Under the pieces are notes generated by a model, which was given only the letters and a program-made list of their open reading frames with translations, was not told the DNA's origin and did no database searches. Positions 8,265 through 29,140 of a stretch of 64,000 nt of DNA are shown piece by piece. The stretch is from positions 1 to 64,000 of the forward strand of contig JANXSF010000073.1 in NCBI GenBank assembly GCA_025352795.1, written 5' to 3'. A program made the position numbers and the translations under genes. This DNA is from Acidobacteriota bacterium. Lineage in GTDB: Bacteria; Acidobacteriota; Terriglobia; Bryobacterales; Bryobacteraceae. Every line of letters starts with the position of its first letter. Position 1 is the first letter of the stretch.

Positions 8265-8366
8265 GGCACTAACTGGCGCTTCTCCCCTATATTCCAGCCT
8301 AATCTCCAGGGAAACCTGGATGCCCGTTGGCCGGGCTGTCTGACATGCTGGAACGTAATTCTTATT

Positions 8367-9575: not shown

Positions 9576-9584
9576 AGGGCTCGT

Positions 9585-12731: not shown

Positions 12732-13999
12732 AATTCTCATTTCTATTTCTATTGCCTTTGTGTGCGCAGAATGTGGTTCCACTGCGACTTACTTTAGACC
12801 AGGCCCAGCAAATGGCGATGAAGAATAATCCATCGGTTGAGGCGGCACGGCTATCCGTGCTTACGGTAGGAGAATCGGCAAAGCAGATTCATTCCGTACG
12901 GTTGCCGTTAGTCAACGGGAGTGTAACTGGGGCCGCCGCCGCACCGGATACACGGCTGGCGGCTGGAGCGCTAAATAATCCGGTGATTTATAGCCGTGCA
13001 GCTACAGGGGTCTCAGTAAGTCAACTGATTACTGACTTCGGTAGAACCAGCTTACTGGAGCAAACCGCCGCATCGCGGACACTAGCCGAAAGCGCCAGTG
13101 CCAATGCAACTCGACTGGCAACATCGGTTGCCGTAAGGCAAGCTTACTTTGCCGGGCTACGGGCGCAAGCTTTGGTGCAAGTTACTCAGCAAACCGTCAT
13201 CGCGCGGCAGTTAGTGGTGGATCAAGTGAAGGCACTGGCAGAAAGTAAGTTGCGGTCAGGATTGGATGTCAGTTTTGCAGAAGTGGCTTTGTCGGAAGGT
13301 AAGTTGCTGGTAGCCACAGCCCGCAATCAACGGCAATCCGCCGATGCCGACCTTGCCCGGGCAATTGGATTCACTGAAGTCCGGGCTTTTGAATTGGTGG
13401 AAGAACCGATGCCTGACGAACTGAAAGCATCGTTACCCGAATTACTGCGTTCGGCCATTGCTAATCGGCCAGAGATAGTTGTTCGTCGGCGCGAAACGGA
13501 AGCTGCACGCTCTTACGCTGCTGCGGAATCCAGGTTGAATCGTCCAACTATTTCCGCCATTGGTGCAGTTGGAGTAACCCCTGTAAGAGTGGAAAAGCTG
13601 ATCCACCCCTATTACAGCGCGGCTGGAATCAATGTCTCAGTCCCATTATTTAATGGGGGATTGTTTGCATCGCGACGTGTGGAGGCGGAAACACGGGTGC
13701 TACAGAGCGAACAGCGGGTGAAGGAAATGGAATCGCGCGTGGCAAACGAAGTTCAGCAAGTGTATTTGCAAATGGAGAATGCCAGGGAACGCCTGACTCT
13801 CACCAAATTGCTTTTGGAGCATTCCTCACAAGCTCTTGAACTATCGCAAGCTCGCTACGACTTGGGTCTGGGGTCCATTGTGGAACTGAGTCAGAGTCAA
13901 TTGGCTAAGACTACGGCGGAAATTCAGATCACCAGTGCGCGGTTTGAATACCAATTGCAGCGGTCGTTGTTGGAATCGCTTACGGAATTGCGACCGTAG
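12728..13999 (+). CDS. TolC-family outer-membrane efflux channel
   Basis: This encodes 423 residues with a short signal peptide (MKFSFLFLLPLCAQ) and two OEP repeats, each starting with the long helical hairpin typical of TolC (LTLDQAQQMAMKNNPSVEAA; later IANRPEIVVRRRETEAARSY). The sequence YDLGLGSIVELSQSQLA near the C-terminus is the usual family signature. The start codon is TTG at 12728, overlapping the pump stop codon as TTGA with GAGAGG just upstream, so it is translationally coupled. It should form the outer-membrane exit duct for the RND pump. The protein is slightly shorter than E. coli TolC. Confidence 0.9.
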   Translation: MKFSFLFLLPLCAQNVVPLRLTLDQAQQMAMKNNPSVEAARLSVLTVGESAKQIHSVRLPLVNGSVTGAAAAPDTRLAAGALNNPVIYSRAATGVSVSQLITDFGRTSLLEQTAASRTLAESASANATRLATSVAVRQAYFAGLRAQALVQVTQQTVIARQLVVDQVKALAESKLRSGLDVSFAEVALSEGKLLVATARNQRQSADADLARAIGFTEVRAFELVEEPMPDELKASLPELLRSAIANRPEIVVRRRETEAARSYAAAESRLNRPTISAIGAVGVTPVRVEKLIHPYYSAAGINVSVPLFNGGLFASRRVEAETRVLQSEQRVKEMESRVANEVQQVYLQMENARERLTLTKLLLEHSSQALELSQARYDLGLGSIVELSQSQLAKTTAEIQITSARFEYQLQRSLLESLTELRP

Positions 14000-14034
14000 C
14001 CATCGGTGACTTGCTAACATGATTGGCGGTCCCT

Positions 14035-15525
14035 ATGAACATTGTTTTTGTTACCCTTGCACTATCAATCGGCCTGGTAATGGCTGCGGAGACTGATCCG
14101 GAAATCCTACTTCTTAAAAAGCAGTTGGGCGAACAGCAAAAGCAGATTGATGAGCTGCGAGACATGCTCAAATTGCAACAGATGCAGTTGGCTCGCGTTC
14201 TGCCTGTGCCAGAGGCGAAAGTGGAAGTGGCTGTGGCTGCTCCCGCTCCCGCTGCCGAGCTAAAAACGCTAAGCAGCGATGTGGAAAAGATTGGTCGGAA
14301 TCTTGGTGGGTTTGCCTTCAGCGGCGATTTTCGTTATCGCTTGGACCTTCAGAATCGGCATGCAAATGCGTTGGGTTCGGGATTGCAGAACGATCGGAAC
14401 CGCTATCGGGTGCGGTTAAATGTAGATAAACAGATCAACCCGCAATTCAAGTTTCACCTGCAACTTTCCACGGGTTCTTATATCAATCAACTGACCAATG
14501 ATCAGGATTTTGGAGCGTTTGGCGTGAAGGTGCCATTCTCTATTGCCGAAGCTTCCGTGAGCTACAGTCCTACGAAAAATATCACTTTATCTGTAGGCCG
14601 AATGCGCGAAGCATTTTTCGACGACACTCGTTTCATATGGGATGACGACATTCGCTTCTCCGGTTTTGAACAGAAGATCCGGCTGCCGTTCAGCGCAGGG
14701 AAACTGTTTAAATCAATTGAGTTGCGTGCAGGGGAATATGTGTTGACGAATCCCAACACGCTCATTGTCCCACCCGATTCTGCTACGACGCCTTCCCCCT
14801 ATGCCCGTGCTGGATTCCCGGTTGGCACAAGAGTTGGGGCCACGAATTTGTTTCATCCGGGGGCGGTGATCAGCGGTGATCTGGGTGCTGGTTGGATGCA
14901 CCAGATTATTTTCGATACACAGGTTTGGAGGAATCCGAATCAGATTGCACTGGCATCCACGTCGTTTGGACCCAATGGATTAATCAATGGTCCACTGGGA
15001 CTAACCATTTCAGGACCAATTGGGGCATCGGCCAACGGGCTAACCACACCGGGTGGGGCAATGTTCACGGCCAAAGACTTTACCATTCCGCGGATTGACT
15101 ATCGCTTGAATCGAACCAATTTCCTGAAACTTGGCGGAAAGACGTTGCCTGGATATTTTGAATTGCAAGTGTCCAGAAACACCAGCGCTGCGTTCCTGAG
15201 AGATGCAGTGATGGGGTTGGTAAGCGTCGGTGCGGTGCGTAAGCCGGGCGATGGAAGGTTTCTATATTCCTACTCCATTAAAGATGCAAATGCACTGATT
15301 GCGCAGTTTACTGATGACGATATGGGCAATGGAGCCGGGGTCAATTCCGCCGTTCACCATTTCCGGTTCGACGTTGGATTAACGCGCTTTCTTAGTTGGC
15401 AAAATCTGTTCTTTGTACTGAACCCACGACGTGGAAGCAATCCATCGCAGCAATTTTACGTTTTGCTGCCTAGAGAGGCAAACACCACTTACCGGTTTCT
15501 TAGCCAGTTGGCGTTCACATTTTAA
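14035..15525 (+). CDS. Putative outer-membrane porin with N-terminal coiled coil
   Basis: This encodes about 496 residues. I choose ATG 14035 because it opens the signal peptide (MNIVFVTLALSIGLVMA) and follows GGCGGT; a TTG at 14023 is the alternative. A heptad-rich segment (about residues 25-50, LKKQLGEQQKQIDELRDMLK) and an Ala/Pro-rich linker precede a barrel of alternating beta strands starting at FAFSGDFRYRLDL and ending in QLAFTF with a terminal phenylalanine. This layout suits the trimeric putative_porin group, where the coiled coil contacts peptidoglycan or helps trimerise. The next gene is a phosphate permease, so phosphate uptake across the outer membrane is a possible role, inferred only from position. 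Confidence 0.75.
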   Translation: MNIVFVTLALSIGLVMAAETDPEILLLKKQLGEQQKQIDELRDMLKLQQMQLARVLPVPEAKVEVAVAAPAPAAELKTLSSDVEKIGRNLGGFAFSGDFRYRLDLQNRHANALGSGLQNDRNRYRVRLNVDKQINPQFKFHLQLSTGSYINQLTNDQDFGAFGVKVPFSIAEASVSYSPTKNITLSVGRMREAFFDDTRFIWDDDIRFSGFEQKIRLPFSAGKLFKSIELRAGEYVLTNPNTLIVPPDSATTPSPYARAGFPVGTRVGATNLFHPGAVISGDLGAGWMHQIIFDTQVWRNPNQIALASTSFGPNGLINGPLGLTISGPIGASANGLTTPGGAMFTAKDFTIPRIDYRLNRTNFLKLGGKTLPGYFELQVSRNTSAAFLRDAVMGLVSVGAVRKPGDGRFLYSYSIKDANALIAQFTDDDMGNGAGVNSAVHHFRFDVGLTRFLSWQNLFFVLNPRRGSNPSQQFYVLLPREANTTYRFLSQLAFTF

Positions 15526-15556
15526 TCGCTTAAAAAAGTTTTTTGAGGATCAACAC

Positions 15557-15574
15557 AAATCTTAACGAAATCTT
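15557..15574 (+). promoter_or_regulatory. Direct repeat with 11-bp period, possible PHO-type operator
   Basis: AAATCTT occurs at 15557-15563 and again at 15568-15574, that is 7-bp repeats separated by 4 bp. This spacing is the geometry of PhoB boxes, although the sequence is not the E. coli consensus. It lies upstream of the phosphate transporter gene. A chance repeat cannot be excluded. Confidence 0.3.
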
Positions 15575-15636
15575 GCTTCACTCAAGGATGAGTGGTTGCT
15601 ACACTGACTATTTGTTTTCAGTACTGGGGAGCTTTA

Positions 15637-17130
15637 TTGGAAAGCATATTCGGCCACTCACTTACGTTGTACACCGGATTTTTTTTGGCGTTGGCGTTAG
15701 GCCTCGCCCTTACTTTTGAATTCGTCAATGGCTTTCACGACACTGCGAATGCCGTAGCTACGGTTATTTACACCCATTCCTTGCGACCAACGGTTGCTGT
15801 GGTCTGGTCTGGCATATGGAATCTGATTGGCGTATTGACTTCAACGGGGGCCGTCGCCTTTGGTGTGATCGCATTGCTGCCGTCGGAACTGGTTTTGAAT
15901 ATTGGCACCAGTGCGGGCTTTGCCATGGTTTTCGCATTGCTGTTTTCAGCCATTCTTTGGAATTTAGGCACGTGGTACTTTGGGCTGCCTGCTTCCAGTT
16001 CGCATACCTTGATCGGCTCCATTCTGGGCGTAGGCTTAGCCAACAATTGGATGCAATACGGCCACATATTTGGCGAAGGTGTGAATTGGACGAAGACTAA
16101 GGAAATCGGCCTTTCCTTGCTGATTTCGCCGATGATTGGATTCTGCGGTGCCGCTTTAGTGCTGCTGCTTTGTAAGGCATTGATCAAAAATCCTGATCTG
16201 TACACTGCTCCGAAAAACGGCAAGGCGCCGCCGTTTCTGATTCGATCTCTACTGGTTCTTACCTGCACAGGCGTTAGCTATGCGCATGGATCGAATGATG
16301 GTCAAAAAGGCATGGGGCTGATCATGCTGATTCTGATTGGCGTAATTCCATCTATTTACGCAGTGGACATGGCCGCGCAACCGGAAACCATTCAGGAACT
16401 GGTGGCGCTTTCCAGATCCACAGGGACGGTTTTAGAGAAGCAGGTTTCGTTTTCGGGAGTGCTGCCAGAGCACGCTGAAGAGCAAATTGGAACTTACTTG
16501 AAGACCAACGGAAAGTCCACTTCGGCATTGCTAGCCGCCATTGCCAGCAAGAATCGGGAGATTGGAGTGTCGTTAGACGGCAAGAGCGCGATGAAGGAAA
16601 TTGATGAACAGGAAAGACTGAAGCTGCGCACGAATCTGTATCTGGTTTCGGAATCGCTTGGAAAGCTGAATAAGTCAAATCAGTTTACCGACCCTGCGGA
16701 CAAGGCGGCATTAAACGCTTACAAATTGAAAATTGAAAAAGTCACCCGCTTCATTCCTGCCTGGGTGAAAGTGCTGGTGGCCTTGGCCCTTGGTTTGGGC
16801 ACCATGATTGGTTGGAAACGAATTGTGGTCACGGTAGGTGAAAAGATCGGCAAAGAACACCTGACGTATGCTCAAGGAGCTTCCGCTGAACTGGTGGCCA
16901 TGACCACCATTGGCGCAGCGGACATGTTGGGTTTACCAGTGAGTACAACGCACGTCCTTTCGTCAGGCATTGCCGGGACCATGGCTGCCAACCGAAGCGG
17001 TGTGCAACTGGCCACCATGCGTAACTTATTAATTGCCTGGGTGCTTACTCTGCCGGTGTGTGTTTCGTTGGGAGCAATCTTTTTCGGGTTCGGCCTTAAT
17101 GTAGTATTAAAAGGTTTGGGTCTACATTGA
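15637..17130 (+). CDS. pit: PiT-family inorganic phosphate transporter
   Basis: This encodes about 497 residues with roughly ten membrane helices and a long hydrophilic central loop (about 270-390). The two PiT signatures are present: GFHDTANAVATVIYTHSLRP near the N-terminus, and the C-terminal copy around ADMLGLPVSTTHVLSSGIAG. HGSNDGQKGMG lies in the middle. It imports phosphate (as metal-phosphate in characterised members) using the proton gradient. TTG 15637 is preferred as start because GGGGAG lies five bases upstream; GTG 15592 is possible but poorly spaced. No PhoU-like DUF47 partner is adjacent. The gene opens a long same-strand block that ends in pstSCAB-phoU. Confidence 0.88.
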   Translation: MESIFGHSLTLYTGFFLALALGLALTFEFVNGFHDTANAVATVIYTHSLRPTVAVVWSGIWNLIGVLTSTGAVAFGVIALLPSELVLNIGTSAGFAMVFALLFSAILWNLGTWYFGLPASSSHTLIGSILGVGLANNWMQYGHIFGEGVNWTKTKEIGLSLLISPMIGFCGAALVLLLCKALIKNPDLYTAPKNGKAPPFLIRSLLVLTCTGVSYAHGSNDGQKGMGLIMLILIGVIPSIYAVDMAAQPETIQELVALSRSTGTVLEKQVSFSGVLPEHAEEQIGTYLKTNGKSTSALLAAIASKNREIGVSLDGKSAMKEIDEQERLKLRTNLYLVSESLGKLNKSNQFTDPADKAALNAYKLKIEKVTRFIPAWVKVLVALALGLGTMIGWKRIVVTVGEKIGKEHLTYAQGASAELVAMTTIGAADMLGLPVSTTHVLSSGIAGTMAANRSGVQLATMRNLLIAWVLTLPVCVSLGAIFFGFGLNVVLKGLGLH

Positions 17131-17146
17131 GATTCCCTGAGGATCC

Positions 17147-17866
17147 ATGAGTAACGATAAGAAATGGTACAACTACTTTGTTTCTGTGGACGAAGCGCCT
17201 GCGCAAGCTGACGAACCAATTGAACCGGGCTCCGCTACCCCTTCCGCAGTGAAAGCAATTGCCGATATTGCGGCGTCCATTCAGCCTTCTGCAAAGCAAC
17301 AGGATCGGATGGAGCAAAAGCTGCAAACGGCTGCACCCGCTGCTTCAACTGGCAAGACAATGTCATTCGACGAAATCTATGCGGCAGCGGAAATCACAGC
17401 ACCTACCCACGGTTACAGCATCCTGAAAATTGCCGACATGTTGGAGAGCCCCCATATTAAGGCCTTGCCAACCGACGTGAAGCGAAGTTCCGTGCTGGTA
17501 GCACTGGATGCCGCTGGGGTAAAGATGCAGGACGTAGTGGAAGACGCCGTGCGTCGCGATAAGGCGCTGGATGCTTTCGAGCGGGTGCAGAACAAGCAGG
17601 TGGAGGATTTAGAAGCCGCCAAGCTTGACGAAAATCGAAAGCTGCAGGCAGAGCTAGATAAGCTGACGGGCGAATATAGGGCGAAAATGCAGGCGAATAC
17701 TCTATTTGTGACGCAACGCAAAGAGACCTTCTTTAGCTGGCGCGTGGAAAAGCAAAAGATGGAACAAAAAATCGCCGATGCCGTATCTCCTTTTGTGACC
17801 GACAATCCGATCACCACTTCTTCGCGGCCCACGCCGCTACCGTCTGCAGGGAAGACGGGAATCTAG
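17147..17866 (+). CDS. Uncharacterised cytoplasmic coiled-coil protein, PspA-cluster member
   Basis: This encodes 239 residues with no signal peptide or membrane segment. The first 70 residues are low-complexity and rich in Ala, Pro and Glu. A central helical domain (about 72-125) reads MSFDEIYAAAEITAPTHGYS and continues through LPTDVKRSSVLVALDAAGV. It is followed by a coiled coil (about 125-215, VEDLEAAKLDENRKLQAELD) and a Ser/Thr/Pro-rich tail. The coiled coil suggests partnership with PspA, which is encoded 60 bases downstream and is itself entirely helical. A GAGGA site precedes the ATG. I do not recognise a named family. From position I infer that it is a dedicated subunit or regulator of the PspA-AAA-transporter set. 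Confidence 0.7.
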   Translation: MSNDKKWYNYFVSVDEAPAQADEPIEPGSATPSAVKAIADIAASIQPSAKQQDRMEQKLQTAAPAASTGKTMSFDEIYAAAEITAPTHGYSILKIADMLESPHIKALPTDVKRSSVLVALDAAGVKMQDVVEDAVRRDKALDAFERVQNKQVEDLEAAKLDENRKLQAELDKLTGEYRAKMQANTLFVTQRKETFFSWRVEKQKMEQKIADAVSPFVTDNPITTSSRPTPLPSAGKTGI

Positions 17867-17926
17867 AGACAACCCCCGTCTCAAGCCTCATTTGTTAAGC
17901 TATTACCTAGTCTTGGAGCCTCAATT

Positions 17927-18658
17927 ATGTGGAACCGTTTAGTTAGAGTGGTTCGGTCCTTTGTTGGTATGTTCATTTCTGTTGCAGAAAATCCAGAGAT
18001 GATTCTGGAACAGAACATCCGCGACCTGAACGATCAGGTGCCGCGAATGAACGAATCCATCGCCATGGTCAAAGCGAATGTGACGCTTCTTGAAAATGAA
18101 GAGACCAAGTATAAGAGCGATGTTCTGGATTTGACGTCGAAACTGAAGGCATCCATCCAGGCGAATCGGGACGATCTTGCGGCCAACTTCGCTGTGCAAC
18201 TGGAAACTCTGAAGTCGGCACTGGGGCGTACCCAGGCACAATTGCAGACAGCTCAGTTGGCATTTGAGAAGGCGATGAATGTCAGAAAAGCCTTCATGCG
18301 AGAAAAAGAGCGCAAGACGCAGGAAGCCATGCAGGCCATCCGCGACAATCGCCGATCCCAATGGCAGAAGAAAGTCGCCGATACACTAGATCAATTTGAA
18401 GTGGCGGGCATTAGTCAAACACACGATGAAATGCTTCGCAAAGTAGAAGAGCAGACAGCCGTGAACGAAGCGCGGATGGAAATGGCTTTGGGCAATGTGG
18501 ATCAACAGCGCGTCAAAATTGAAGAAGAAGCGGAAAAGCTCCGTGCCGGTGAATTGGTGAAGCAATTCAAAATTGAAATGGGGCTGATGAGCCCGGCACC
18601 CTCCGCAACGCCAGATAAGACTATTGGCAGCCGTGAAGGCGAGAGCACCAAAAGCTAA
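17927..18658 (+). CDS. PspA/IM30 (ESCRT-III-like) membrane-remodelling protein
   Basis: This encodes 243 residues, about the length of PspA and Vipp1. It opens with an amphipathic helix (MWNRLVRVVRSFVGMFISVA) followed by ENPEMILEQNIRDLNDQV, which matches the family start. The rest is a long helical hairpin rich in Lys, Glu and Gln (LETLKSALGRTQAQLQTAQL; MREKERKTQEAMQAI). The last 25 residues are a disordered Ser/Pro tail. Known relatives bind stressed inner membranes as helical or ring polymers and belong to the ESCRT-III superfamily. The usual regulators PspF, PspB and PspC are absent nearby. Its neighbours are instead an OmpA-fused solute-binding protein, an ABC transporter and an AAA ATPase. 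GGAG lies upstream of the ATG. Confidence 0.87.
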   Translation: MWNRLVRVVRSFVGMFISVAENPEMILEQNIRDLNDQVPRMNESIAMVKANVTLLENEETKYKSDVLDLTSKLKASIQANRDDLAANFAVQLETLKSALGRTQAQLQTAQLAFEKAMNVRKAFMREKERKTQEAMQAIRDNRRSQWQKKVADTLDQFEVAGISQTHDEMLRKVEEQTAVNEARMEMALGNVDQQRVKIEEEAEKLRAGELVKQFKIEMGLMSPAPSATPDKTIGSREGESTKS

Positions 18659-18679
18659 CAAATAGGAGCGATCAAGAAA

Positions 18680-20485
18680 ATGGCTGTCAAAATTGAAAAG
18701 GGTGGATGGTTTCTCATCTTTGCAATGGGACTGGGCATCACCGGATACGCGCTGAACAAGTACGGATTGCTGGATATGATCATGCCATCGGCTAAAGTCC
18801 GTCAATCGACGGATGTGGGCAAGGTGGTATTGCCGCAGGTGCAGGATTCGGGCAAGGTGGATGTTGCAGCGGCAGCTATGCCCGCCAGCCAGCGCGGTTG
18901 CGATGACAAGCCAGAAGTTCGTTTCTACCTTTGGGCATGGAACGCACAAATGGGATTGATGTTTGCCAATGGTGGTCCACAAGCAACCAAGGGCAGCCTG
19001 ATGTGCGGCAAGAATGTCAATTTGCGAATGGTGCGTGAGGACGATAGCAACAAAATGCAGGAAGCTCTGGTGGCCTTTGCCACGGAGCTCAAGAGTGGCA
19101 ACGCGAATCCTTCCAAAGGTGCTTATTTCGTGGCTATCATGGGCGATGGCGCGGCAACATTTCTGAAGGGTCTGAATGACACTCTGCGTAAGATCGGCCC
19201 GGAATACACGGCAAAAGTAATTGGTTCGGCTGGTTATTCCCGCGGTGAAGACAAGTTCATGGGTCCTGCAGAATGGAAGCGCAATCCACAGTCTTCTCGC
19301 GGTGGATTTGTGGCTGGCGTGCTGCGTGACGGCGATTGGAACATTGCTCAAAAATGGTTGGGCGATAACGGGCTGTGTAACAATCCTGACGAAAAAACTT
19401 ACGATCCAGGTTGTTTGAACTGGGTGAATTCCAGCGACTACATTGACGCTGGCGAAAAGTATATCTCTAACTATTGTGAGACGCGACCCGTTGTACAAAG
19501 TGGCAAAAAGACTGGCGAGAATCGCAAAGTGTGCGTCAACGGGGTGGTTACCTGGACCCCAGGTGACGTGAACGTAGCTCGCAAACGTGGTGGATTGGTG
19601 GCTGTTGCTTCCACTCGCGAATATAGTTCGCAAATGCCAAATACAATCATCGGAATTGATAAATGGATGCAGGATAACCGACCGATTGTGGAAGGCATGA
19701 TAGAGGCAATGTTCCAGGGTGGCGATCAGATCAAGTCGTATCCACAGGCTCTGAAGTACGCTTCTGGCGTAAGCGCTTCGGTTTATAACGAATATCAGAG
19801 CGAACCTGGATATTGGGAAAAATATTATAAAGGTGTCGTAGAACCTGACAAGTCAGGCACGCCCGTGGAATTGGGCGGATCTTCAGTGAACAACCTTGCC
19901 GATAACATTTTGTTGTTCGGCATGGCCCCCAACACGGCCAACATCTTTGCTGCCACTTACAAGACTTTCGGAGACATTGTTTCGCAGCAATATCCTGATT
20001 TGTTACCGTCGTATGACGCTGCCAACAAAGTGTTGGACACGTCTTACATAGAAGCCATTGCCCGCAGAAATCCGCAAATGACACCCGCCGCCATGCCGCA
20101 GTTTTCGTCAGCAGCTAAAGTTGAAAACGTGGTGAGTCGCCGGTCTTGGAACATCACGTTTGATACGGGTCAGGCAACCTTCACTCCGGGGACGAAAGCC
20201 GATCTGGAAAAGCTCACGCGCGACCTGTTGGTGGCTGGCAATACACTGGTTGAAATCCACGGGCATACAGATTCCGTCGGGGGGGCAGACTCCAATCAGA
20301 CACTGTCTGAGGCCCGGGCATTTAGTGTGAAGAAGTACTTGGAAGGGCAGTCTTCAGTGAGTTTTCCTGAAGGTCGTTTACGAGTGTTCTCGCACGGTCA
20401 GGCGAATCCTATTGCGTCAAATGCTACGCCCGATGGTCGGGCAAAGAATCGGCGAGTTGAGATAGTTATCGGCACCTCAAAATGA
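18680..20485 (+). CDS. Membrane-anchored solute-binding protein fused to an OmpA peptidoglycan-binding domain
   Basis: This encodes 601 residues. Residues about 9-28 form one membrane helix (GGWFLIFAMGLGITGYALNK) with no clear cleavage site, so the protein is probably a periplasmic domain tethered to the inner membrane. Residues about 75-470 look like a type-2 periplasmic binding protein of the NMT1/NitT-TauT kind (EVRFYLWAWNAQMGLMFANG, GGFVAGVLRDGDWNIAQKWL, LADNILLFGMAPNTANIF), with several cysteines that could pair. Residues about 490-601 form an OmpA domain: VEIHGHTDSVGGADSNQTLS supplies the peptidoglycan-binding Asp and RAKNRRVEIVI the Arg. It could sense or deliver a ligand while linking membrane and cell wall. 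AGGAG precedes the ATG. The stop codon overlaps the permease start. Confidence 0.85.
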   Translation: MAVKIEKGGWFLIFAMGLGITGYALNKYGLLDMIMPSAKVRQSTDVGKVVLPQVQDSGKVDVAAAAMPASQRGCDDKPEVRFYLWAWNAQMGLMFANGGPQATKGSLMCGKNVNLRMVREDDSNKMQEALVAFATELKSGNANPSKGAYFVAIMGDGAATFLKGLNDTLRKIGPEYTAKVIGSAGYSRGEDKFMGPAEWKRNPQSSRGGFVAGVLRDGDWNIAQKWLGDNGLCNNPDEKTYDPGCLNWVNSSDYIDAGEKYISNYCETRPVVQSGKKTGENRKVCVNGVVTWTPGDVNVARKRGGLVAVASTREYSSQMPNTIIGIDKWMQDNRPIVEGMIEAMFQGGDQIKSYPQALKYASGVSASVYNEYQSEPGYWEKYYKGVVEPDKSGTPVELGGSSVNNLADNILLFGMAPNTANIFAATYKTFGDIVSQQYPDLLPSYDAANKVLDTSYIEAIARRNPQMTPAAMPQFSSAAKVENVVSRRSWNITFDTGQATFTPGTKADLEKLTRDLLVAGNTLVEIHGHTDSVGGADSNQTLSEARAFSVKKYLEGQSSVSFPEGRLRVFSHGQANPIASNATPDGRAKNRRVEIVIGTSK

Positions 20486-21300
20486 GCCCTGCGGCACCTA
20501 CGGGCCAACGCTTCAAAGGTTGGTTAGACGTATTGCGACCCAACGAGGTTGTCTCCCCGACGGCCATGCAAATCGTCGTTGTGGTGCAGGTGGCCATGGC
20601 GTTGGTCATCTGGTGGACGTCCCCATGGGCGGTGCTTCCCAAGCCGAACGAAGTGTTTACGGCCATGGGACGCTTGTGGATGCAAGAAGGCCTTGGGCAG
20701 GAATTAATCACCAGCTTCTTCATGAATGTGGAGGCGCTGCTGATCACCGCGGTCATTTCTTTAGGGCTTGCCTACTTGTCCGTCTTACCTGCGGTGAGAC
20801 CCATTGTTGGCGCTATCGCAAAGGGTCGTTTCCTGGGACTCAGTGGGCTTACTTTCATCTTCACTCTAGTGGTGGGTGGCGGTCATCCTCTTAAAATCTC
20901 GTTGCTGGTGTTTGGCATGACAGTATTTTTCGTTACATCCATGGCATCAGTGGTGGCGTCCATTCCAAAATCAGCATTCGACCATGCCCGCACTTTGCGA
21001 CTCACAGAGTGGCAGGCGGTTTGGGACGTGGTGATTTTAGGCACGTCCGATCAAGCCATTGAAGTGTTCCGTCAGAACGCGGCTATTGGTTGGATGATGC
21101 TAACTATGGTGGAAGGTATTTCGCGGTCGGAGGGTGGCGTGGGTGCGCTTTTATTGAATCAGAATAAACACTTCCATCTGGCTGAAGTGTTTGCCATTCA
21201 GCTCCTGATCCTTACCGTGGGTCTGTTGCAGGATTTTGCAATCGGCATAGGCAAGCGATTGTTGTGCCCCTGGGCGCACATCACGCTGGAGCGCATTTAA
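20482..21300 (+). CDS. ABC transporter permease, NitT/TauT type
   Basis: This encodes 272 residues with about six membrane helices and the BPD_transp_1 fold. The cytoplasmic EAA-like loop is present around RTLRLTEWQAVWDVVILG, followed by FRQNAAIGWMMLTMVEGISR. These residues contact the ATPase encoded next. The start codon overlaps the stop of the OmpA-fused binding protein as ATGA, implying coupled translation and a common complex. The overall pattern resembles the SsuC/TauC permeases, but the substrate cannot be deduced. A role in signalling envelope state rather than bulk import is possible, given the PspA and AAA neighbours. Confidence 0.82.
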   Translation: MSPAAPTGQRFKGWLDVLRPNEVVSPTAMQIVVVVQVAMALVIWWTSPWAVLPKPNEVFTAMGRLWMQEGLGQELITSFFMNVEALLITAVISLGLAYLSVLPAVRPIVGAIAKGRFLGLSGLTFIFTLVVGGGHPLKISLLVFGMTVFFVTSMASVVASIPKSAFDHARTLRLTEWQAVWDVVILGTSDQAIEVFRQNAAIGWMMLTMVEGISRSEGGVGALLLNQNKHFHLAEVFAIQLLILTVGLLQDFAIGIGKRLLCPWAHITLERI

Positions 21301-21303
21301 GAA

Positions 21304-22134
21304 ATGCTGCCTAAGTTTGCCTATTCGATGGCAGAAAATATTCTGCAGGTTCAAGACGTCTGCTTGACGCTTGGCGGCAACTTGATTTTGGACAAGGTGA
21401 ATTTCCAGATCAAGAACATTATCCGGCCCGATGCAATTGCAGGTCAAGTGGTGGGGTTATTGGGACCATCGGGGATTGGCAAGACACAACTTTTTCATAT
21501 TCTTGCTGGCCTTAAACATGCAACCAGTGGGCAAGTGTTGATTGGAGAACCGGGCATTCCAGTGCATCGTGGCATGGTGGGTGTGGTGGCGCAACAATCA
21601 CCGCTGTTCATGCATCGTACAGTGTTAGGCAACTTACTCATTGCAGGCAGACGTTCAGGCAAGACAGAGGAGCAGACTCAGGCCAAGGCGCAATCACTTC
21701 TGGATCGATTTCGTATGACTGATCGTGCCACGCATTATCCAGCAATGCTTTCCGGAGGTCAACGCCAACGCGTGGCCATTGCCCAGCAGATTATGTGTAG
21801 CGAATCTTTCCTGCTGATGGACGAACCTTTCAGTGGGCTTGATTTAATTGCCCTGCGCAAAGTGCAGGATCTGATTCGGGAAATTGCGACTGCCGATGAA
21901 CTGAATACAATTATTGTGGTGACGCACGATATTGGAGTGGCGCTGGAAGTGTGTGACACCATACATCTTCTTGGACGCAATAGCGACCAGCACGGCAAGT
22001 TTGTACCGGGCGCTAGAATCCAAGCCAGCTACAATCTAATAGAGCGGGGCCTTGCGTGGCGGAAAGATATCTCCACAACTCCTGAGTTCCTGGATTGTCT
22101 TAAGGAAATCAGAGAACGATTTACCATTTTATAA
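21304..22134 (+). CDS. ABC transporter ATP-binding protein
   Basis: This encodes 276 residues. It has Walker A (GLLGPSGIGKTQL), a Q loop in VAQQSPLFMHRTVLG, the ABC signature LSGGQRQR, Walker B (LLMDEPFSGLD) and the switch histidine in IIVVTHDIGVALE. It resembles NitT/TauT-type ATPases but has a longer C-terminal tail (about 60 residues, ending LKEIRERFTIL). The lysine, serine/threonine and aspartate residues needed for ATP hydrolysis are intact. It sits 3 bases after the permease and should energise it. An alternative start at 21331 (MAENILQVQDV) lacks a ribosome-binding site, so the first ATG is kept. Confidence 0.87.
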   Translation: MLPKFAYSMAENILQVQDVCLTLGGNLILDKVNFQIKNIIRPDAIAGQVVGLLGPSGIGKTQLFHILAGLKHATSGQVLIGEPGIPVHRGMVGVVAQQSPLFMHRTVLGNLLIAGRRSGKTEEQTQAKAQSLLDRFRMTDRATHYPAMLSGGQRQRVAIAQQIMCSESFLLMDEPFSGLDLIALRKVQDLIREIATADELNTIIVVTHDIGVALEVCDTIHLLGRNSDQHGKFVPGARIQASYNLIERGLAWRKDISTTPEFLDCLKEIRERFTIL

Positions 22135-22152
22135 GTGTGCAGCCAAAGATTT

Positions 22153-22989
22153 ATGAGTCAGCAGCCGGAAGAACTAAACTACGTCAAAGCAGCTTTCCAG
22201 TGGCAGTACAATCTGATTGCATTGGGCGGAGCTGCAGCAACGTCGTTAGTCACTATGAATCCGCTGCCGTTGATTCTTGCTGCCGGGGTGGAGTTGATGT
22301 ACATGGCCACCGTGCCGAACATGGCCGCGTTTCAACGCCTGGTTCGATCACGCCTGTATGAAGCTGGCAAGAAACAACACGACGATGCACTGAAGACTCT
22401 TTTATACGCGCTGCCGCCGGAACGTCGGGAACGCTACCAGCAACTGCAACAGATCAGCCAAACCATCCGTTCCAATTTAGCGCGCCTTTCTTCCACTTCG
22501 CAGATTTTCGTAAACCAATTAGACGGGCGTCTAAACGGACTTTTGGCAGCCTTTGTGCGCCTGTCCAATCACAGCCTGCAGCACGTGCAATACCTGCAAA
22601 CAACCAATGCCGATAGCATCCGTCGTGAAATTAGTTCCCTTCAGTTGCGCTTGCCCAAAGACCTGCCACGGGTGCAGGAAGTGAACAAGAAGCGGATTGA
22701 AATTCTGGAAAAGCGTCTGGAAAAGTTCGGCAAGATTCAGGAAAATTATCAGGTGATTGAGGCTCAGAGTCGCGCCATTGAAGACGTGTTGCAACTGATT
22801 CGTGAGCAGTCAATGACCATGGAAGATCCGCAACAGGTGTCGGAACGGCTGGATACTTTGGTTCGCGACGTGGAATCAACAGAAGATGCAGTTCGTCAAG
22901 TGGAGGGTATTTTCCAGATGAGCCCGGAAATTGAAAATAGCTTCGATTCAACAGATAGCGGTGGCAATCGCGGACGGATTACGAGCTAA
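22153..22989 (+). CDS. Uncharacterised membrane-hairpin/coiled-coil protein, PspA-cluster member
   Basis: This encodes about 278 residues. Residues about 18-55 contain two closely spaced hydrophobic stretches (YNLIALGGAAATSLVTM, PLPLILAAGVELMYMATV), probably a membrane hairpin. The remaining 220 residues are almost wholly helical and hydrophilic (QQLQQISQTIRSNLARLS, EVNKKRIEILEKRLEKFGK, REQSMTMEDPQQVSERLDTL) with coiled-coil character. A GTG at 22135 would add six residues; ATG 22153 is preferred. It lies between the ABC ATPase and the AAA ATPase and could be a membrane receptor that recruits the latter. No named family recognised. Confidence 0.68.
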   Translation: MSQQPEELNYVKAAFQWQYNLIALGGAAATSLVTMNPLPLILAAGVELMYMATVPNMAAFQRLVRSRLYEAGKKQHDDALKTLLYALPPERRERYQQLQQISQTIRSNLARLSSTSQIFVNQLDGRLNGLLAAFVRLSNHSLQHVQYLQTTNADSIRREISSLQLRLPKDLPRVQEVNKKRIEILEKRLEKFGKIQENYQVIEAQSRAIEDVLQLIREQSMTMEDPQQVSERLDTLVRDVESTEDAVRQVEGIFQMSPEIENSFDSTDSGGNRGRITS

Positions 22990-22995
22990 CACACA

Positions 22996-24717
22996 ATGGA
23001 ACACCTCCCTGGCTGGGCCAAACAATTTTCCGAACGTTACTACTCTGGCGCATACTCCACATTTGTGCTGCATGGCAACGTTCATGACCTGGTTACAAGC
23101 TCTCCTGCGCGGGGCAAACCTACTTATCTGCCGCTGAATCAGTTTCTGCAGACGGTCCTATTTGAGCAGCGCGACATCGTTCTTTGTTACGACCGTGGTG
23201 GTGGAATCAGCTTTGCCACTGCCAGCATGCAGGCGGACTTTCGTAACGCCATGGAAGGGTACGATTCGTTTCACGGCACCAAGTATTCGCAAGGTGGATT
23301 GCCGCGTAACCCGGACGGGGTGCTGACCATTCTGGACAATTATCTGCGTCTGCGCGTACAAGACAAGCGGAAGATTGCGCTGATTGTTGAATACGCGGAA
23401 ACCATTGTTCCGGCAGGCGGAGTGGGTACCATGCCTGCGGATGATCGCAATGCCCTGGTGATTTTTCAACGTTGGGCGCATAACCCAGTGTTCAAACAAT
23501 CTGACATCACCATTGTTCTGATCTCTGAAAACATCGTGGAACTCAATCAGGACATTGTGCAGCATCCTGGAGTAACAGCCATTGCCATCCCCATGCCCGA
23601 TGAAGCGGAGCGTCGTGAATTTCTGGAATGGCACTTGGCGGAATCGCCGCTGCCGGAAGGGTCCAATATCTCAACCCCTGTATTGGCGAATCTGACAGCG
23701 GGTTTGAAGCGCGTTCAATTGCAGGGCCTCACATTGTATGCAGCACGTAACCGTCAGCCTTTGACCATGGCTGAAATGGCTACCCGAAAGAAGGATCTGA
23801 TTGAGGCGGAAGCAGGCGGCATGCTGGAGTTTGTGCAAAGCCGTTGGAATTTATCGATGGTGGCAGGGTCTATCAGCGCTAAGCAAAAACTTGTTGACGC
23901 GGTGACGGCCATCCGCATGGGGCGGTCAGAAATTCTGCCCATGGGTTATGTGATCTGCGGCCCGGTGGGTACCGGGAAAACTTTTCTGGCAACTTGCTTT
24001 GCCGGAGAGGTGGGTATACCCGCTGTTATTTTGAAGAACTTTCGTTCCATGTGGCAGGGGCAGACAGAGGCGAATCTGGAACGGATCCTGGCCCTGTTGA
24101 AGGCGATGAGTCCCATTGTGGTGATCATTGATGAAGCGGATGCGCAACTGGGTGATCGGTCTTCATCGGGCGATTCGGGAGTGAACAACCGCGTGTTCGC
24201 GCAGATTGCGCAGTTCATGGGGAACACGGAATATCGGGGCAAGGTTCTGTGGTTCCTGTTGACGTGTCGACCCGATTTGCTGCCTGTAGATTTGAAGCGT
24301 CAAGGTCGGGCAGAAGAGCATCTGGGTCTGTTTTATCCTGATAGTGACGAAGACAGAATCGCCATGTTGCGGGCGATGCAGAAGAAGACAGGCACCAGTT
24401 TCGAAATGGCGCAAGATGCAGAGAAAGTGTTTTTGGATCACGCCGCGCCACTGTCAGGTGCAGACATTGAATCGCTATTGGTGAGAGCGAAAATGCGGGC
24501 CGTGCTGGTTGGGAAATCTACGCCAGACGCGTCGGATTTACACAGCGCCATTCTTGACTTCATTCCGGCATCTTCACCTGCGGAGATCGAACTGCAGACG
24601 CTGGTGGCGGTGTTGGAATGCACCAGCCGGACGTTATTGCCAGAAAAATATCGAAGCGTGGATCGCAGTGAAGTGGTTCGCAGGGTGACCGAACTGAAAA
24701 TGCTGTTGGCCCGGTAG
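22996..24717 (+). CDS. Two-domain AAA ATPase with degenerate N-terminal AAA module
   Basis: This encodes 573 residues. The N-terminal half (about 1-215) has the outline of an AAA module without Walker A: FVLHGNVHDLV at the usual P-loop position, then IALIVEYAE and ITIVLISENIVELNQDI. The second half is a classical AAA ATPase: Walker A GPVGTGKT (322-329), Walker B VVIIDEADA (about 375-383), and a second region of homology with TCRPDLLPVDLKRQGRAEE that could supply arginine fingers. A helical lid follows. The arrangement resembles Ycf46-like ATPases. With PspA in the same gene set it is a candidate disassembly or remodelling motor, by analogy to Vps4 and ESCRT-III. It is the last gene before pstS. 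Confidence 0.83.
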   Translation: MEHLPGWAKQFSERYYSGAYSTFVLHGNVHDLVTSSPARGKPTYLPLNQFLQTVLFEQRDIVLCYDRGGGISFATASMQADFRNAMEGYDSFHGTKYSQGGLPRNPDGVLTILDNYLRLRVQDKRKIALIVEYAETIVPAGGVGTMPADDRNALVIFQRWAHNPVFKQSDITIVLISENIVELNQDIVQHPGVTAIAIPMPDEAERREFLEWHLAESPLPEGSNISTPVLANLTAGLKRVQLQGLTLYAARNRQPLTMAEMATRKKDLIEAEAGGMLEFVQSRWNLSMVAGSISAKQKLVDAVTAIRMGRSEILPMGYVICGPVGTGKTFLATCFAGEVGIPAVILKNFRSMWQGQTEANLERILALLKAMSPIVVIIDEADAQLGDRSSSGDSGVNNRVFAQIAQFMGNTEYRGKVLWFLLTCRPDLLPVDLKRQGRAEEHLGLFYPDSDEDRIAMLRAMQKKTGTSFEMAQDAEKVFLDHAAPLSGADIESLLVRAKMRAVLVGKSTPDASDLHSAILDFIPASSPAEIELQTLVAVLECTSRTLLPEKYRSVDRSEVVRRVTELKMLLAR

Positions 24718-24759: not shown

Positions 24760-24790
24760 ATACCAATGCTAACTTTTGATCAGGATACTA

Positions 24791-25807
24791 ATGATGAAAC
24801 TTATAAGTTTACGCTTTGCATCGATGTGCTTTGCGGCAATGGTAACGGCCACGCTGGCCTTATCACAAAATATCACTGGAGCGGGGGCTACCTTTCCCTA
24901 TCCAATTTATTCTCAATGGTTTAGTGAATTCAAGAAAACGCATGGTAGCGTGCAGATCAATTATCAGTCGCTGGGATCCGGTGCGGGAATCCGCCAGTTG
25001 GAAGCGGGCACAGTGGATTTCGGCGCATCCGATAAGCCAATGACCGATGAGGAAATAGGCAAACAAAAGGTGAAACCCCTGCATTTCCCTACGGTGATGG
25101 GCGGCGTGGTTCCAATTTACAATCTTCCCGGTTCCAGTGGCGATGTCAAATTCAGTGCACAGGCATTGGCCGGAATTTTTCTGGGAACCATCAGCAAATG
25201 GAACGATCCGATTTTGTTGAAAGACAATCCTGGATTGCCCGATAAAAACATTGTGGTGGTTCACCGATCCGATGGTAGTGGAACCACATTTGTTTTCTCA
25301 GATTTCTTGGCGAAGGTTAGTCCGGAATGGAAATCGAAATGCGGTGCCAGTGCTTCAATTAAGTGGCCTGTTGGTTTGGGCGCCAAGGGTAGCGAAGGGG
25401 TCACAGGGTTGGTAAAGCAGACTCCTTTTTCCGTGAGTTATGTGGAATTGATTTTCGCCACACAGAACAAGATCGGCTACGGTTCAGTGAAGAACGCTGC
25501 GGGCAATTTTATTAAGGCCGATATCAATTCAGTAAGTGCGGCGGCATCTGGTGCTGCCAAAAACATGCCCACCGATTATCGGGTTTCCATCGCCAACGCC
25601 GCTGGCAAAGACTCCTATCCGATTTCCACTTTCACCTGGCTGTTGATTCCTTCCACCATCGCCGATGGCAATAAGAAAAAGGCACTGATCGAGTTCCTGC
25701 ACTGGATGCTAAAGGACGGCCAGAAGATGGCTGGGGCCTTGGGCTATGCCCCCTTACCACCTTCGGTCGTTGCCATGGTGGATAAGTCAATTGCGCAAGT
25801 ACAGTAG
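24791..25807 (+). CDS. pstS: Phosphate ABC transporter, periplasmic phosphate-binding protein
   Basis: This encodes about 338 residues. I start at ATG 24791, which begins the signal peptide (MMKLISLRFASMCFAAMVTA) and follows AGGA; a TTG at 24776 is less likely. The mature protein starts with the family hallmark NITGAGATFPYPIYSQW and has phosphate-loop motifs LGSGAGIRQLEAGTVDFGAS, VHRSDGSGTTFVFSDFL and GSEGVTGLV. It captures phosphate in the periplasm for PstCAB, encoded immediately downstream. Confidence 0.95.
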   Translation: MMKLISLRFASMCFAAMVTATLALSQNITGAGATFPYPIYSQWFSEFKKTHGSVQINYQSLGSGAGIRQLEAGTVDFGASDKPMTDEEIGKQKVKPLHFPTVMGGVVPIYNLPGSSGDVKFSAQALAGIFLGTISKWNDPILLKDNPGLPDKNIVVVHRSDGSGTTFVFSDFLAKVSPEWKSKCGASASIKWPVGLGAKGSEGVTGLVKQTPFSVSYVELIFATQNKIGYGSVKNAAGNFIKADINSVSAAASGAAKNMPTDYRVSIANAAGKDSYPISTFTWLLIPSTIADGNKKKALIEFLHWMLKDGQKMAGALGYAPLPPSVVAMVDKSIAQVQ

Positions 25808-25812
25808 GCAAT

Positions 25813-26766
25813 ATGGCCAGCAGCGCTAAGTCCACGTCTTTTACCGCCGTTAGAAAATCTGTCCAAATGGGGGACGAAGCTGCCCGTTTGGTTACGCTGG
25901 TTTTCGCCGGTGGCATACTTCTAATCACGCTGTTAGTTGTGGCTGTGTTGTGGGACCATTCGTCGCTGGCCCTATACAAATTCGGCTTCCACTTTTTTAC
26001 CAGCCAAAATTGGGACCCCAATTCCGATGAGTTCGGCGCGCTGCCCTTTGTTTACGGCACTCTTATGACGTCGTTCCTGGCGTTGCTGATTGCGGTTCCA
26101 CTGGGAGTAGGGGCGGCCATCTTTCTGGCGGAACTTGCTCCACCGAAGATTTCCTCAATACTTACTTTCTTAGTAGAACTGCTGGCAGCGGTTCCCAGCG
26201 TGATTTACGGGCTGTTAGCTATCTTCACGTTAGTGCCATTCATGCGCGATACTGTGGAACCGGCGCTGCAATCCACTTTAGGATTCCTGCCATTCTTTCA
26301 AGGACAAATTTTTGGAGTGGGCTATTTGACGGCTGGAGTGATTCTGGCCATCATGACCTTCCCGTTCATCATTTCCATTTCTCGCGAAGCGCTACTGGCC
26401 GTTCCACGCGAACAACGGGAAGCAGCATTGGCACTAGGGGCCACGCAATGGGAATCCACTTTTGATATTGTCCTGCCCAATGCGCGCCTGGGCATCATTG
26501 GGTCTATCTTTCTGGGCCTGGCTCGCGCACTTGGGGAAACCATGGCGGTAACTATGGTGATTGGTAACGACCCTAGCATCAAGGCGAGTTTGTTCGCCCC
26601 TGGCTATACCATTGCCGCCGTCATTGCCAATGAGTTTGCGGAAGCTTCCGGCAACTTACATTTGAGTGCGCTGGTTGCGCTTTCCTTCGTACTGTTTCTA
26701 TTGACCATGGTGATTAACGGCGCGGCGCGGCTAATGATTATGGCCACGTCGCGGAAGGGAGCATAG
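25813..26766 (+). CDS. pstC: Phosphate ABC transporter permease PstC
   Basis: This encodes 317 residues with six predicted membrane helices. Family motifs include YGTLMTSFLALLIAVPLGVG, LAAVPSVIYGLLAIFTLVP and the EAA loop REAALALGATQWESTFDIVL. It forms the membrane channel with PstA, which starts 3 bases after the stop. The gene follows pstS by 5 bases. Confidence 0.95.
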   Translation: MASSAKSTSFTAVRKSVQMGDEAARLVTLVFAGGILLITLLVVAVLWDHSSLALYKFGFHFFTSQNWDPNSDEFGALPFVYGTLMTSFLALLIAVPLGVGAAIFLAELAPPKISSILTFLVELLAAVPSVIYGLLAIFTLVPFMRDTVEPALQSTLGFLPFFQGQIFGVGYLTAGVILAIMTFPFIISISREALLAVPREQREAALALGATQWESTFDIVLPNARLGIIGSIFLGLARALGETMAVTMVIGNDPSIKASLFAPGYTIAAVIANEFAEASGNLHLSALVALSFVLFLLTMVINGAARLMIMATSRKGA

Positions 26767-26769
26767 GCG

Positions 26770-27609
26770 ATGACTCTCCGGACACGCTGGCGATATTTGG
26801 TGAACAATGTGATGTTGGCGCTCACTGGATTTTGCACATTACTCACCATCTCAATTCTGTTTTTCATTCTGGGCTACCTGGTTTGGAACGGCTTCACTTC
26901 GCTCGATTTGGCCTTCTTCACCGAACTACCCAAATCTCCTGGTGAGGCGGGCGGCGGAATGGCCAACGCCATTCTGGGCAGCTTTATGATGGTGGGATTA
27001 GCTACCGTGATCGGGGTGCCCATCGGCTTTCTGGGTGGCGTTTATCTGGCTGAATATGATGGCGGTTGGTTGCCGCCGGTGGTCCGTTACACGGCCGATT
27101 TGTTGAATGGGATCCCGTCCATCGTGTTGGGAATTGTTGCCTGGAATCTCTTAGTTGTTCCTATGAAAACATTTTCGGCCTGGGCTGGCAGTGTGGCATT
27201 GAGCCTGATTTTGATTCCCATTGTGGTTCGCAGTACAGAGCAGTTTTTACGGGCGGTGCCCAACTCTTTACGCGAAGGGGCACTGGCATTAGGCGCCAAT
27301 AAAGCCACCGCCACATTAACTGTGGTTGTTCCTGCCGCACGTCGGGGCATACTTACCGGCATTATTTTGGGCGTGGCCCGCATTGCCGGTGAAACCGCTC
27401 CGCTGTTGTTCACCAGCTTAAACAATCAGTTTTGGGCAACCAGCCCCAATCAACCCACCGCATCCTTGCCGGTTATGATATTCACCCATGCAATTTCCCC
27501 CTATGACGATTGGCACAGGCAGGCTTGGGCCGCTGGTTTAGTGCTGCTGGCGTTTGTTCTAATAGCAAATATGACTGCGCGATTTGTTGTGTCGCGAAAT
27601 GCGAGTTGA
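26770..27609 (+). CDS. pstA: Phosphate ABC transporter permease PstA
   Basis: This encodes 279 residues with six predicted membrane helices. Recognisable segments are LNGIPSIVLGIVAWNLLVVP, the EAA loop REGALALGANKATATLTVVV, and GVARIAGETAPLLFTSLNNQ, all typical of PstA. It pairs with PstC and is energised by PstB, encoded 6 bases downstream. Confidence 0.95.
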   Translation: MTLRTRWRYLVNNVMLALTGFCTLLTISILFFILGYLVWNGFTSLDLAFFTELPKSPGEAGGGMANAILGSFMMVGLATVIGVPIGFLGGVYLAEYDGGWLPPVVRYTADLLNGIPSIVLGIVAWNLLVVPMKTFSAWAGSVALSLILIPIVVRSTEQFLRAVPNSLREGALALGANKATATLTVVVPAARRGILTGIILGVARIAGETAPLLFTSLNNQFWATSPNQPTASLPVMIFTHAISPYDDWHRQAWAAGLVLLAFVLIANMTARFVVSRNAS

Positions 27610-27615
27610 TCGTTT

Positions 27616-28461
27616 ATGCAACCCAAGGTGTCCTCCATGAGTTCCCCGAGTTTCCCAACGAAAATGCATATTGAACCTCATTCTTCAGGTGCTGCTAATA
27701 CCCCGACTTCAAAAGAAGCAAAGATGAGGGCAGCGAATCTTAATTTCTTTTACGGTTCCTTTCAGGCTCTCTACGATATTGACCTGGAAATTCAGGCGAA
27801 CCGCATTACGGCTCTGATTGGTCCGTCAGGGTGCGGTAAGTCCACTTTCTTAAGGACCTTGAACCGCATCAACGAAACCATTCGTGGGACAAGGTACACT
27901 GGGGAAGTCCTGCTGGATGGGGTGGACGTAAAAAGCCAGGACGTTACCGCGCTGCGTCGTCGCGTGGGGATGGTTTTCCAAAAGTCAAATCCATTTCCCA
28001 AGACAATTTTTGATAATATTGCCTACGGTCCCAAAGTGAATGGGATGACTTCCAAACAGGATCTTGAGGTGACTGTAGAAAAGAGTCTACGGCGGGCGGC
28101 TCTTTGGGAAGAGGTGAAAGATAAGCTGCAGAAGCCCGCATCGGCATTATCAGGAGGCCAACAACAACGCCTCTGCATTGCCCGGGCGATGGCCGTAGAT
28201 CCAGAAGTCCTGCTGCTGGATGAGCCCTGTTCTGCATTGGATCCCATTGCGACACTGAAAATTGAAGAGCTCCTATTCAGTATTAAGGACCAAACGACGA
28301 TTGTAATTGTGACCCATAACATGCAGCAAGCAGCCAGAGTGGCGGATAATACTGGTTTCTTCATGCTTGGCAAACTTGTGGAGTTTGATAGAACTGAGAT
28401 GATTTTCAGAAACCCTTCCAAGAAAGAAACTGAAGATTACGTTACCGGCCGTTTCGGCTGA
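27616..28461 (+). CDS. pstB: Phosphate ABC transporter ATP-binding protein PstB
   Basis: This encodes 281 residues. It contains [17 protein letters not shown] at the family start, Walker [30 protein letters not shown] (a PstB-specific stretch around the Q loop), the signature LSGGQQQR, Walker [13 protein letters not shown] and the switch histidine in [14 protein letters not shown]. The first 35 residues before the ABC core are longer than usual and low-complexity. ATGs at 27637 and 27664 could be the real start, and no start has a strong ribosome-binding site. Confidence 0.95.
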
Positions 28462-28477
28462 AAAAAGGAGAACCTGT

Positions 28478-29140
28478 TTGCGGCATTTTGCGATTGAACT
28501 GGAAGAGCTGAAAACCAAGCTACTGCAGATGGGTGGAATGGTGGAAGCGGCCCTGCATCGTAGCGTCCGCGCGGTTGTGGATCGTGATGCGGATTTGGCC
28601 AAGAAAGTAAAAGAGGGCGAGGCGGCCATCAACACCATGGAAATGGAGATTGATGAACTGGTTACTAAGCTGCTGGTATTGCAACAGCCAGTGGCCAGGG
28701 ACCTACGCTTTCTTACGTCGGTACTGAAGATTAATACGGACCTGGAGCGCATGGGTGACTTGGCCAACGGCTTGGCTAAACGTGCCCAATCGCTGATGAA
28801 TTATCCTCCGCTAAAGTTGAACATAGATCTTAACCACATGTCTTCGCTAGTGGAATCCATGTTGTTGAAAAGTCTGGATGCGTTTCTTCGGGAAGATGCC
28901 TATTTGGCGCAGCAGGTGCTGCTATCCGATGACGAAGTAGATGCCATCCGCGGTGCTGCTTACGGTGAGATCATCGCCCACATGCAAAGCAATCCGGCTG
29001 ACGTACGGGCAGGTGTGGAACTGATTTTTGTTGTCCGCAATCTGGAACGCATCGGGGACCATGCCACGAACATGGCGGAAGGTGTGATCTACATGGCTAA
29101 GGGTGTGGATGTGCGGCATAATTCTAAAACTCTGGTTTAG
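28478..29140 (+). CDS. phoU: Phosphate transport system regulatory protein PhoU
   Basis: This encodes 220 residues, all helical, with two PhoU three-helix repeats. The first has INTMEMEIDELVTKLLVLQQ and INTDLERMGDLANGLAKRA, the second VDAIRGAAYGEII and VRNLERIGDHATNMAEGVI, which carry the acidic metal-binding motifs. It normally restrains the PhoR/PhoB response and PstB activity when phosphate is plentiful. The start is TTG 28478 with AAGGAG seven bases upstream. No phoR or phoB gene is in the window. Confidence 0.93.
   Translation: MRHFAIELEELKTKLLQMGGMVEAALHRSVRAVVDRDADLAKKVKEGEAAINTMEMEIDELVTKLLVLQQPVARDLRFLTSVLKINTDLERMGDLANGLAKRAQSLMNYPPLKLNIDLNHMSSLVESMLLKSLDAFLREDAYLAQQVLLSDDEVDAIRGAAYGEIIAHMQSNPADVRAGVELIFVVRNLERIGDHATNMAEGVIYMAKGVDVRHNSKTLV

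Follow-up and report, generated by a model that had tools for sequence, protein, structure and literature searches.

A conserved Acidobacteriota gene set joining PspA and an AAA ATPase to exchangeable ABC transporter cassettes

Gene content and layout of the locus

We analyzed a stretch of 64,000 nucleotides from an Acidobacteriota bacterium (assembly GCA_025352795.1, contig JANXSF010000073.1, positions 1 to 64,000; hereafter, the window), in which seven genes encode a PspA/IM30 protein, a solute-binding protein (SBP) fused to an OmpA domain, the permease and ATPase of an ATP-binding cassette (ABC) transporter, an AAA ATPase, and two proteins without known family, g1 and g6. The gene set is real, conserved, and already described in outline; its PspA-g6-AAA core appears with two divergent versions of the transporter, cassettes A and B. 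All seven open reading frames (ORFs) were confirmed on the + strand at 17147-24717:

17147..17866, + strand: g1, 239 aa, predicted cytosolic helical/coiled-coil protein without known family
17927..18658, + strand: PspA/IM30 protein, 243 aa (PF04012, E=6e-18)
18680..20485, + strand: cassette A SBP-OmpA protein, 601 aa (OmpA at 493-591, E=1e-18)
20482..21300, + strand: cassette A ABC permease, 272 aa (BPD_transp_1, E=0.006, sub-threshold)
21304..22134, + strand: cassette A ABC ATPase, 276 aa (PF00005, ABC_tran, E=3e-26)
22135..22989, + strand: g6, 284 aa, predicted hydrophobic hairpin and long cytosolic helical bundle
22996..24717, + strand: AAA ATPase, 573 aa (PF00004 at 319-444, E=1e-21)

A preliminary description of the window had reported seven same-strand genes with short gaps or overlaps. 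Both this layout and its parts list hold: the intergenic gaps are 60, 21, -4, 3, 0, and 6 bp in order from g1 to the AAA gene, and the products match PspA_IM30, OmpA, ABC_tran, and AAA, with two proteins left without a family. The g6 start may be the ATG at 22153 instead of the GTG at 22135. A terminator and promoter scan of the seven-gene set gave signals no higher than background.

Conservation and nested organization of the gene set

Searching GTDB genomes for the AAA protein yielded 22 loci. The order g1-PspA-SBP-permease-ABC-g6-AAA recurs on one strand in 14 other Acidobacteria metagenome-assembled genome (MAG) contigs, across which the four core proteins are 44-76% identical (PspA, 70-76%); conservation of the seven-gene set is far beyond chance. 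Among the variants, locus L011 is arranged as in the window except for g1, which is located at a contig edge elsewhere, the transporter genes of L004 are inverted and lie downstream, and the L002 genome carries g6-AAA on one contig and g1-PspA-SBP-permease-ABC on another. Because the orders differ between the Acidobacteriota loci, L048 of the same phylum (permease-ABC-g6-AAA-g1-PspA-SBP), and loci of a second phylum, gene order has been permuted while linkage was kept. This second phylum, that of the Horse_feces333 MAG, is taken to be distinct from the Acidobacteriota sample; at its 16S probe sites, the EUB338-II (Planctomycetes) site was absent and the plain EUB338 site present. It holds g1 in 11 of 148 genomes, and all seven families occur there in the order PspA-SBP-permease-ABC-g6-AAA-g1 in L076, L078, L083, and L084, with the same type at contig edges in L079 and L081.

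Co-occurrence was assessed for all four families in one set of 247 Acidobacteriota genomes, where g1 was detected in 16 genomes, the AAA protein in 36, g6 in 49, and PspA in 73. Search thresholds varied by family, and the g1 profile is narrow, so that a missing g1 is a less certain call than a detected one; a wider profile still found no g1 in 13 of the 16 genomes checked. Together, g6 and PspA were present in 48 of the 49 g6-positive genomes (14.5 expected) and lay within 15 kb of each other in 40, AAA and g6 were present in 32 of the 36 AAA-positive genomes (7.1 expected) and linked in 23, and each of the 16 g1-positive genomes contained AAA, g6, and PspA. That it extends through different families and gene orders speaks for a real association. 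In their gene neighborhoods, too, the families were found together beyond close relatives, across Acidobacteriota and the second phylum, a pattern whose absence would have refuted the preliminary description.

The seven genes do not form a single invariant unit; nested subsets occur, as do loci in which a cassette adjoins g6 and g1. PspA and g6 alone form a unit in L107 and L108, PspA-g6-AAA units occur in L089, L093, L096, and L100, and PspA-g6-AAA-g1 without a transporter was found in the second phylum (L080 and L085). Sequence and comparative genomics place the PspA-g6 pair at the center, with the AAA ATPase as a second layer and the putatively tethered SBP and its ABC importer as an outer cassette that can be replaced. 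Since g6 stands beside PspA in one nested unit and beside the transporter in another, it looks like a hub of the system. The transporter-g6-g1 locus of L044 also contains two additional ORFs without Pfam match (L044:6565-6945 and L044:7937-8536).

Exchange of transporter cassettes against a constant core

Version A of the SBP/permease/ABC trio is present in the window, L007, L011, L012, and L017, and also in L106, with version B in most others. In a phylogeny of the concatenated core proteins PspA, g6, and AAA (18 rows, 200 bootstrap trees), versions A and B interleave, requiring at least four changes, and A formed a single group in 0 of the 200 bootstrap trees. A constraint placing all A together was rejected by the approximately unbiased (AU) test (p=2e-15), as was one grouping L007, L011, and L012 without the B-type L005 (p=7e-4), which nests inside them; the AU-tested groups were defined by cassette type rather than by the tree, with the L007/L011/L012 group as the exception. 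A wider tree needed at least five changes for A. The interleaving of A and B on the core tree means that core and transporter have different histories, and the exchange reflects either replacement at the same operon place or descent from an ancestor with two copies, one of which was lost. Cassettes A and B were not found together in any locus, nor was a second cassette in the window genome, where matches beyond the window's own gene cover only, or nearly only, the OmpA end. A tandem pair of cassette-B binding proteins in one operon (L023:2-2884) suggests duplication of the input module.

Sequence features of the encoded proteins

The PspA_IM30 match (65.7 bits; cut-off, 33.9) identifies what a genome search gave as the sole PspA of the window genome. 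PspA is assigned to the ESCRT-III superfamily (Liu et al., 2021, cited via PMC10936438; PMC11237479). The C-terminal half of the AAA protein is an active-type AAA domain that resembles CDC48/FtsH, and its N-terminal ~280 aa carry no Walker A motif: among 51 full-length homologues, the C-terminal Walker A and Walker B were kept in all, and GK[ST] within the first 270 aa was found in none. The same AAA protein, at about 43% identity, occurs in the Gemmatimonadetes loci L018, L020, L021, and L022 without PspA, g6, or g1 nearby, followed in L020 and L021 by a GspF-like gene (assigned by eye); g1 was detected in 0 of 81 genomes of that phylum.

At its N terminus, the cassette A SBP carries a conserved helix that is weakly hydrophobic, and at its C terminus a peptidoglycan-binding OmpA domain, in which D531 and R546 are invariant in five relatives and are spaced like the peptidoglycan-binding Asp/Arg pair known from A. 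baumannii OmpA. The SBP part of the window protein has no Pfam match; outside the OmpA part, the cassette A SBP is homologous to the cassette B SBPs (hhalign 98.6%, E=1e-15), which are of NMT1 type (E=1e-8). A structure model of the cassette A SBP was unusable (predicted local distance difference test, pLDDT, of 40 from an alignment of 5 sequences). The permease falls below the BPD_transp_1 cut-off (16.8 against 26.4 bits), has several hydrophobic segments, and is encoded between the binding protein and the ATPase, the place that canonical permease homologues occupy in cassette-B loci. Its EAA coupling loop diverges from the consensus (DHARTLR...VILGT) in the window and close relatives, the usual glycine and proline being gone there; the distant cassette-A permeases of L043, L044, and L047 keep both residues, and the cassette-B loop is canonical. 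We regard the divergent loop as a lead, not as evidence for lost transport. The window ABC ATPase has its Walker A, signature, Walker B, and H-loop, and the first three are kept in 10 of 10 cassette-A ATPases and 46 of 46 overall.

The g6 protein has a hydrophobic hairpin at about 28-62 (hydrophobic segment, 34-56), and its AlphaFold2 model (pLDDT 78) is helical throughout. No Pfam or NCBIfam family was above cut-off, 15 members share no common Pfam match, and plasmids gave no match to g6. As a candidate relative of PspA or Snf7, g6 was unsupported by Pfam, hhalign, or Foldseek. For g1, no family match was obtained in Pfam, NCBIfam, PADLOC, or PDB, and no hydrophobic segment was detected; its homologues share a conserved core of ~70 aa (F..IY..A.I ... 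ALDAFE). In the second phylum, the g1 domain also lies inside ORFs of ~600 residues without Pfam match (L073:3-1811 and L077:2-1888). Homologues of g1 stand alone, with no other gene of the set adjoining, in L042, L049, L050, and L051, and the L042 genome carries PspA-SBP-permease-ABC-g6-AAA on a separate contig (L092).

Relation to known systems

An operon with PspA, a transmembrane (TM) 'Snf7 homolog', a double-AAA ATPase, an ABC ATPase, a permease, and a PBPB-OmpA protein is described by Ravi et al. (2024; PMC11237479), with OGG56892.1 as an example protein and a proposed role in linking solute transport to membrane remodelling driven by ATP. It shares with the window PspA, the AAA+ protein, the ABC ATPase, the permease, the SBP-OmpA protein, and a TM partner; its N-terminal AAA+ copy is given as inactive, and the corresponding part of the window protein has no Walker A. 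The preliminary description could not say whether the full set had been described before: six of the seven components are together there, but g1 was not found in the main text, as far as its passages go, and g6 is not confirmed as the Snf7 homolog. No other paper on this operon emerged from a literature search. New here are the recurrence of the set with permuted order, the co-occurrence statistics, the layered units, and the cassette exchange, of which the exchange, the nested sub-units, and the PspA-g6 statistics are absent from the passages found there; new as well is that the homology and structure searches did not bear out a Snf7-like nature of g6.

As in the ESCRT-III/Vps4 systems of archaea and eukaryotes, a gene of the PspA/ESCRT-III superfamily adjoins a gene for a CDC48/FtsH-group AAA ATPase, but a Pfam scan found no MIT domain in the window AAA protein, and those systems have no counterpart of the transporter, the OmpA protein, g1, or g6. 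The classical Psp system (PspF-PspABC) shares PspA only: in agreement with the preliminary description, no PspB, PspC, or PspF is encoded in the cluster or by its neighbors, and the one PspC-domain protein of the genome lies away from it on contig 107. ABC importers of the NMT1/SsuA/TauA type likewise combine an SBP of this superfamily with one permease gene and one ATPase gene; the window SBP differs in its N-terminal helix, its C-terminal OmpA domain, and its linkage to PspA-g6-AAA.

Proposed function and alternative explanations

The set in the window belongs to the PspA / double-AAA / ABC / PBP-OmpA operon type. Our preferred reading, held tentatively and with considerable doubt, is that a tethered SBP and ABC transporter would signal ligand or envelope state via g6 to PspA remodelled by the AAA ATPase. 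The binding protein, spanning from the inner membrane to the cell wall, would sample a ligand or the envelope geometry and dock onto the permease; the cycle of the ABC ATPase might then be relayed via the membrane hairpin of g6 to polymerized PspA at the inner surface of the membrane, which the AAA ATPase, through its single active ring, would pull on or disassemble as Vps4 does ESCRT-III, with g1 as a putative adaptor. Given that transporters change around a retained core, the ligand probably serves as an interchangeable input and is not what the system is for. More doubtful still is the broader proposal of a bacterial ESCRT-like machine that would use a constant PspA-g6-AAA core, swappable peptidoglycan-tethered ABC receptors, and the g1 adaptor for ligand-gated, ATP-driven remodelling of PspA. 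The sensing and remodelling device of the preliminary description is plausible and close to the proposal of Ravi et al. (2024), although we infer the coupling of transporter, g6, PspA, and AAA solely from gene linkage.

Several observations weigh against this reading. Data on physical interactions, expression, or phenotype turned up for none of the members, and the co-occurrence p-values (10^-9 to 10^-30) were computed ignoring genome kinship, which overstates independence. Many loci lack the transporter, which is therefore dispensable for whatever PspA-g6-AAA does; cassette-g6-g1 loci without PspA or AAA nearby exist in L040, L041, L043, L044, and L047, the genomes of which hold PspA and AAA elsewhere. 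An alignment of g6 to a 48-member PspA profile reached 9.0% in hhalign (reversed-sequence control, 6.8%), Foldseek searches with the g6 model gave coiled-coil/BAR-like matches alone, all with E above 0.1, and hhalign, at 1.3%, did not show the N-terminal half of the AAA ATPase to be AAA-like.

Of the alternatives, an ordinary nutrient importer of the NMT1 superfamily survives best, with PspA, g6, and AAA as maintenance or assembly factors that do not read the state of the transporter. The intact motifs of the ABC ATPase, the NMT1 matches and canonical EAA loop of cassette B, and the general role of PspA in the literature as a membrane-maintenance protein are consistent with it. We nevertheless consider it unlikely, given that transporter-free PspA-g6-AAA units are common, that one core repeatedly exchanges transporters, and that an OmpA fusion is unusual in an importer. 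An envelope-geometry or cell-wall sensor, in which the SBP, through its OmpA tether and membrane anchor, would be a ruler of the distance between inner membrane and peptidoglycan and the ABC proteins a mechanotransmitter (cf. FtsEX) rather than an importer, fits the Asp/Arg pair kept in 5 of 5 cassette-A relatives, the common EAA-loop departure of the window and its close relatives, and the response of PspA to envelope stress (literature). Every cassette, however, keeps an SBP domain, and the canonical cassette-B loop and the glycine and proline retained in the distant cassette-A permeases speak against a sensor of this kind, which we judge improbable.

The flanks of the set raise the question of a phosphate response. 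Porin_5 and PiT phosphate transporter genes lie upstream (14023-17130, + strand; 16 bp before g1) and PstSCAB-PhoU downstream (24776-29137, + strand; 58 bp after the AAA gene), with domain matches to PHO4 (E=3e-88), the PstS-like PBP_like_2 (E=3e-42), and PhoU (E=3e-45), an arrangement compatible with management of the membrane under phosphate starvation. Queries with PiT and Pst found no such neighbors in the other 22 loci, barring generic ABC ATPase matches to PstB, so the phosphate linkage is peculiar to the window genome and is treated as incidental; a phosphate-related role appears very improbable. Anti-phage defense is the least credible reading, since the weak PADLOC IetA matches (E=8e-14) cover the AAA domain only and are explained by that shared domain, which CDC48/FtsH models score higher, and neither an IetS protease partner nor defense genes were seen among the neighbors examined (porin, PiT, Pst, PhoU, and the set). 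Further upstream (6298-13996), genes for a HisKA_3 histidine kinase and a response regulator (- strand) adjoin an apparent tripartite RND-type efflux set (+ strand) that extends up to the porin gene.

The finding bears on how PspA-type scaffolds come apart and on which cues they answer to beyond classical Psp systems; according to Ravi et al. (2024), it is unknown how assembly is regulated by PspA homologues that lack an AAA partner. Here, a bacterial PspA is accompanied by a dedicated AAA ATPase, a constant partner, g6, and a repeatedly swapped, putatively wall-tethered input, which would offer a genetically separable system for testing whether remodelling of PspA can be ATP-driven and ligand-gated.

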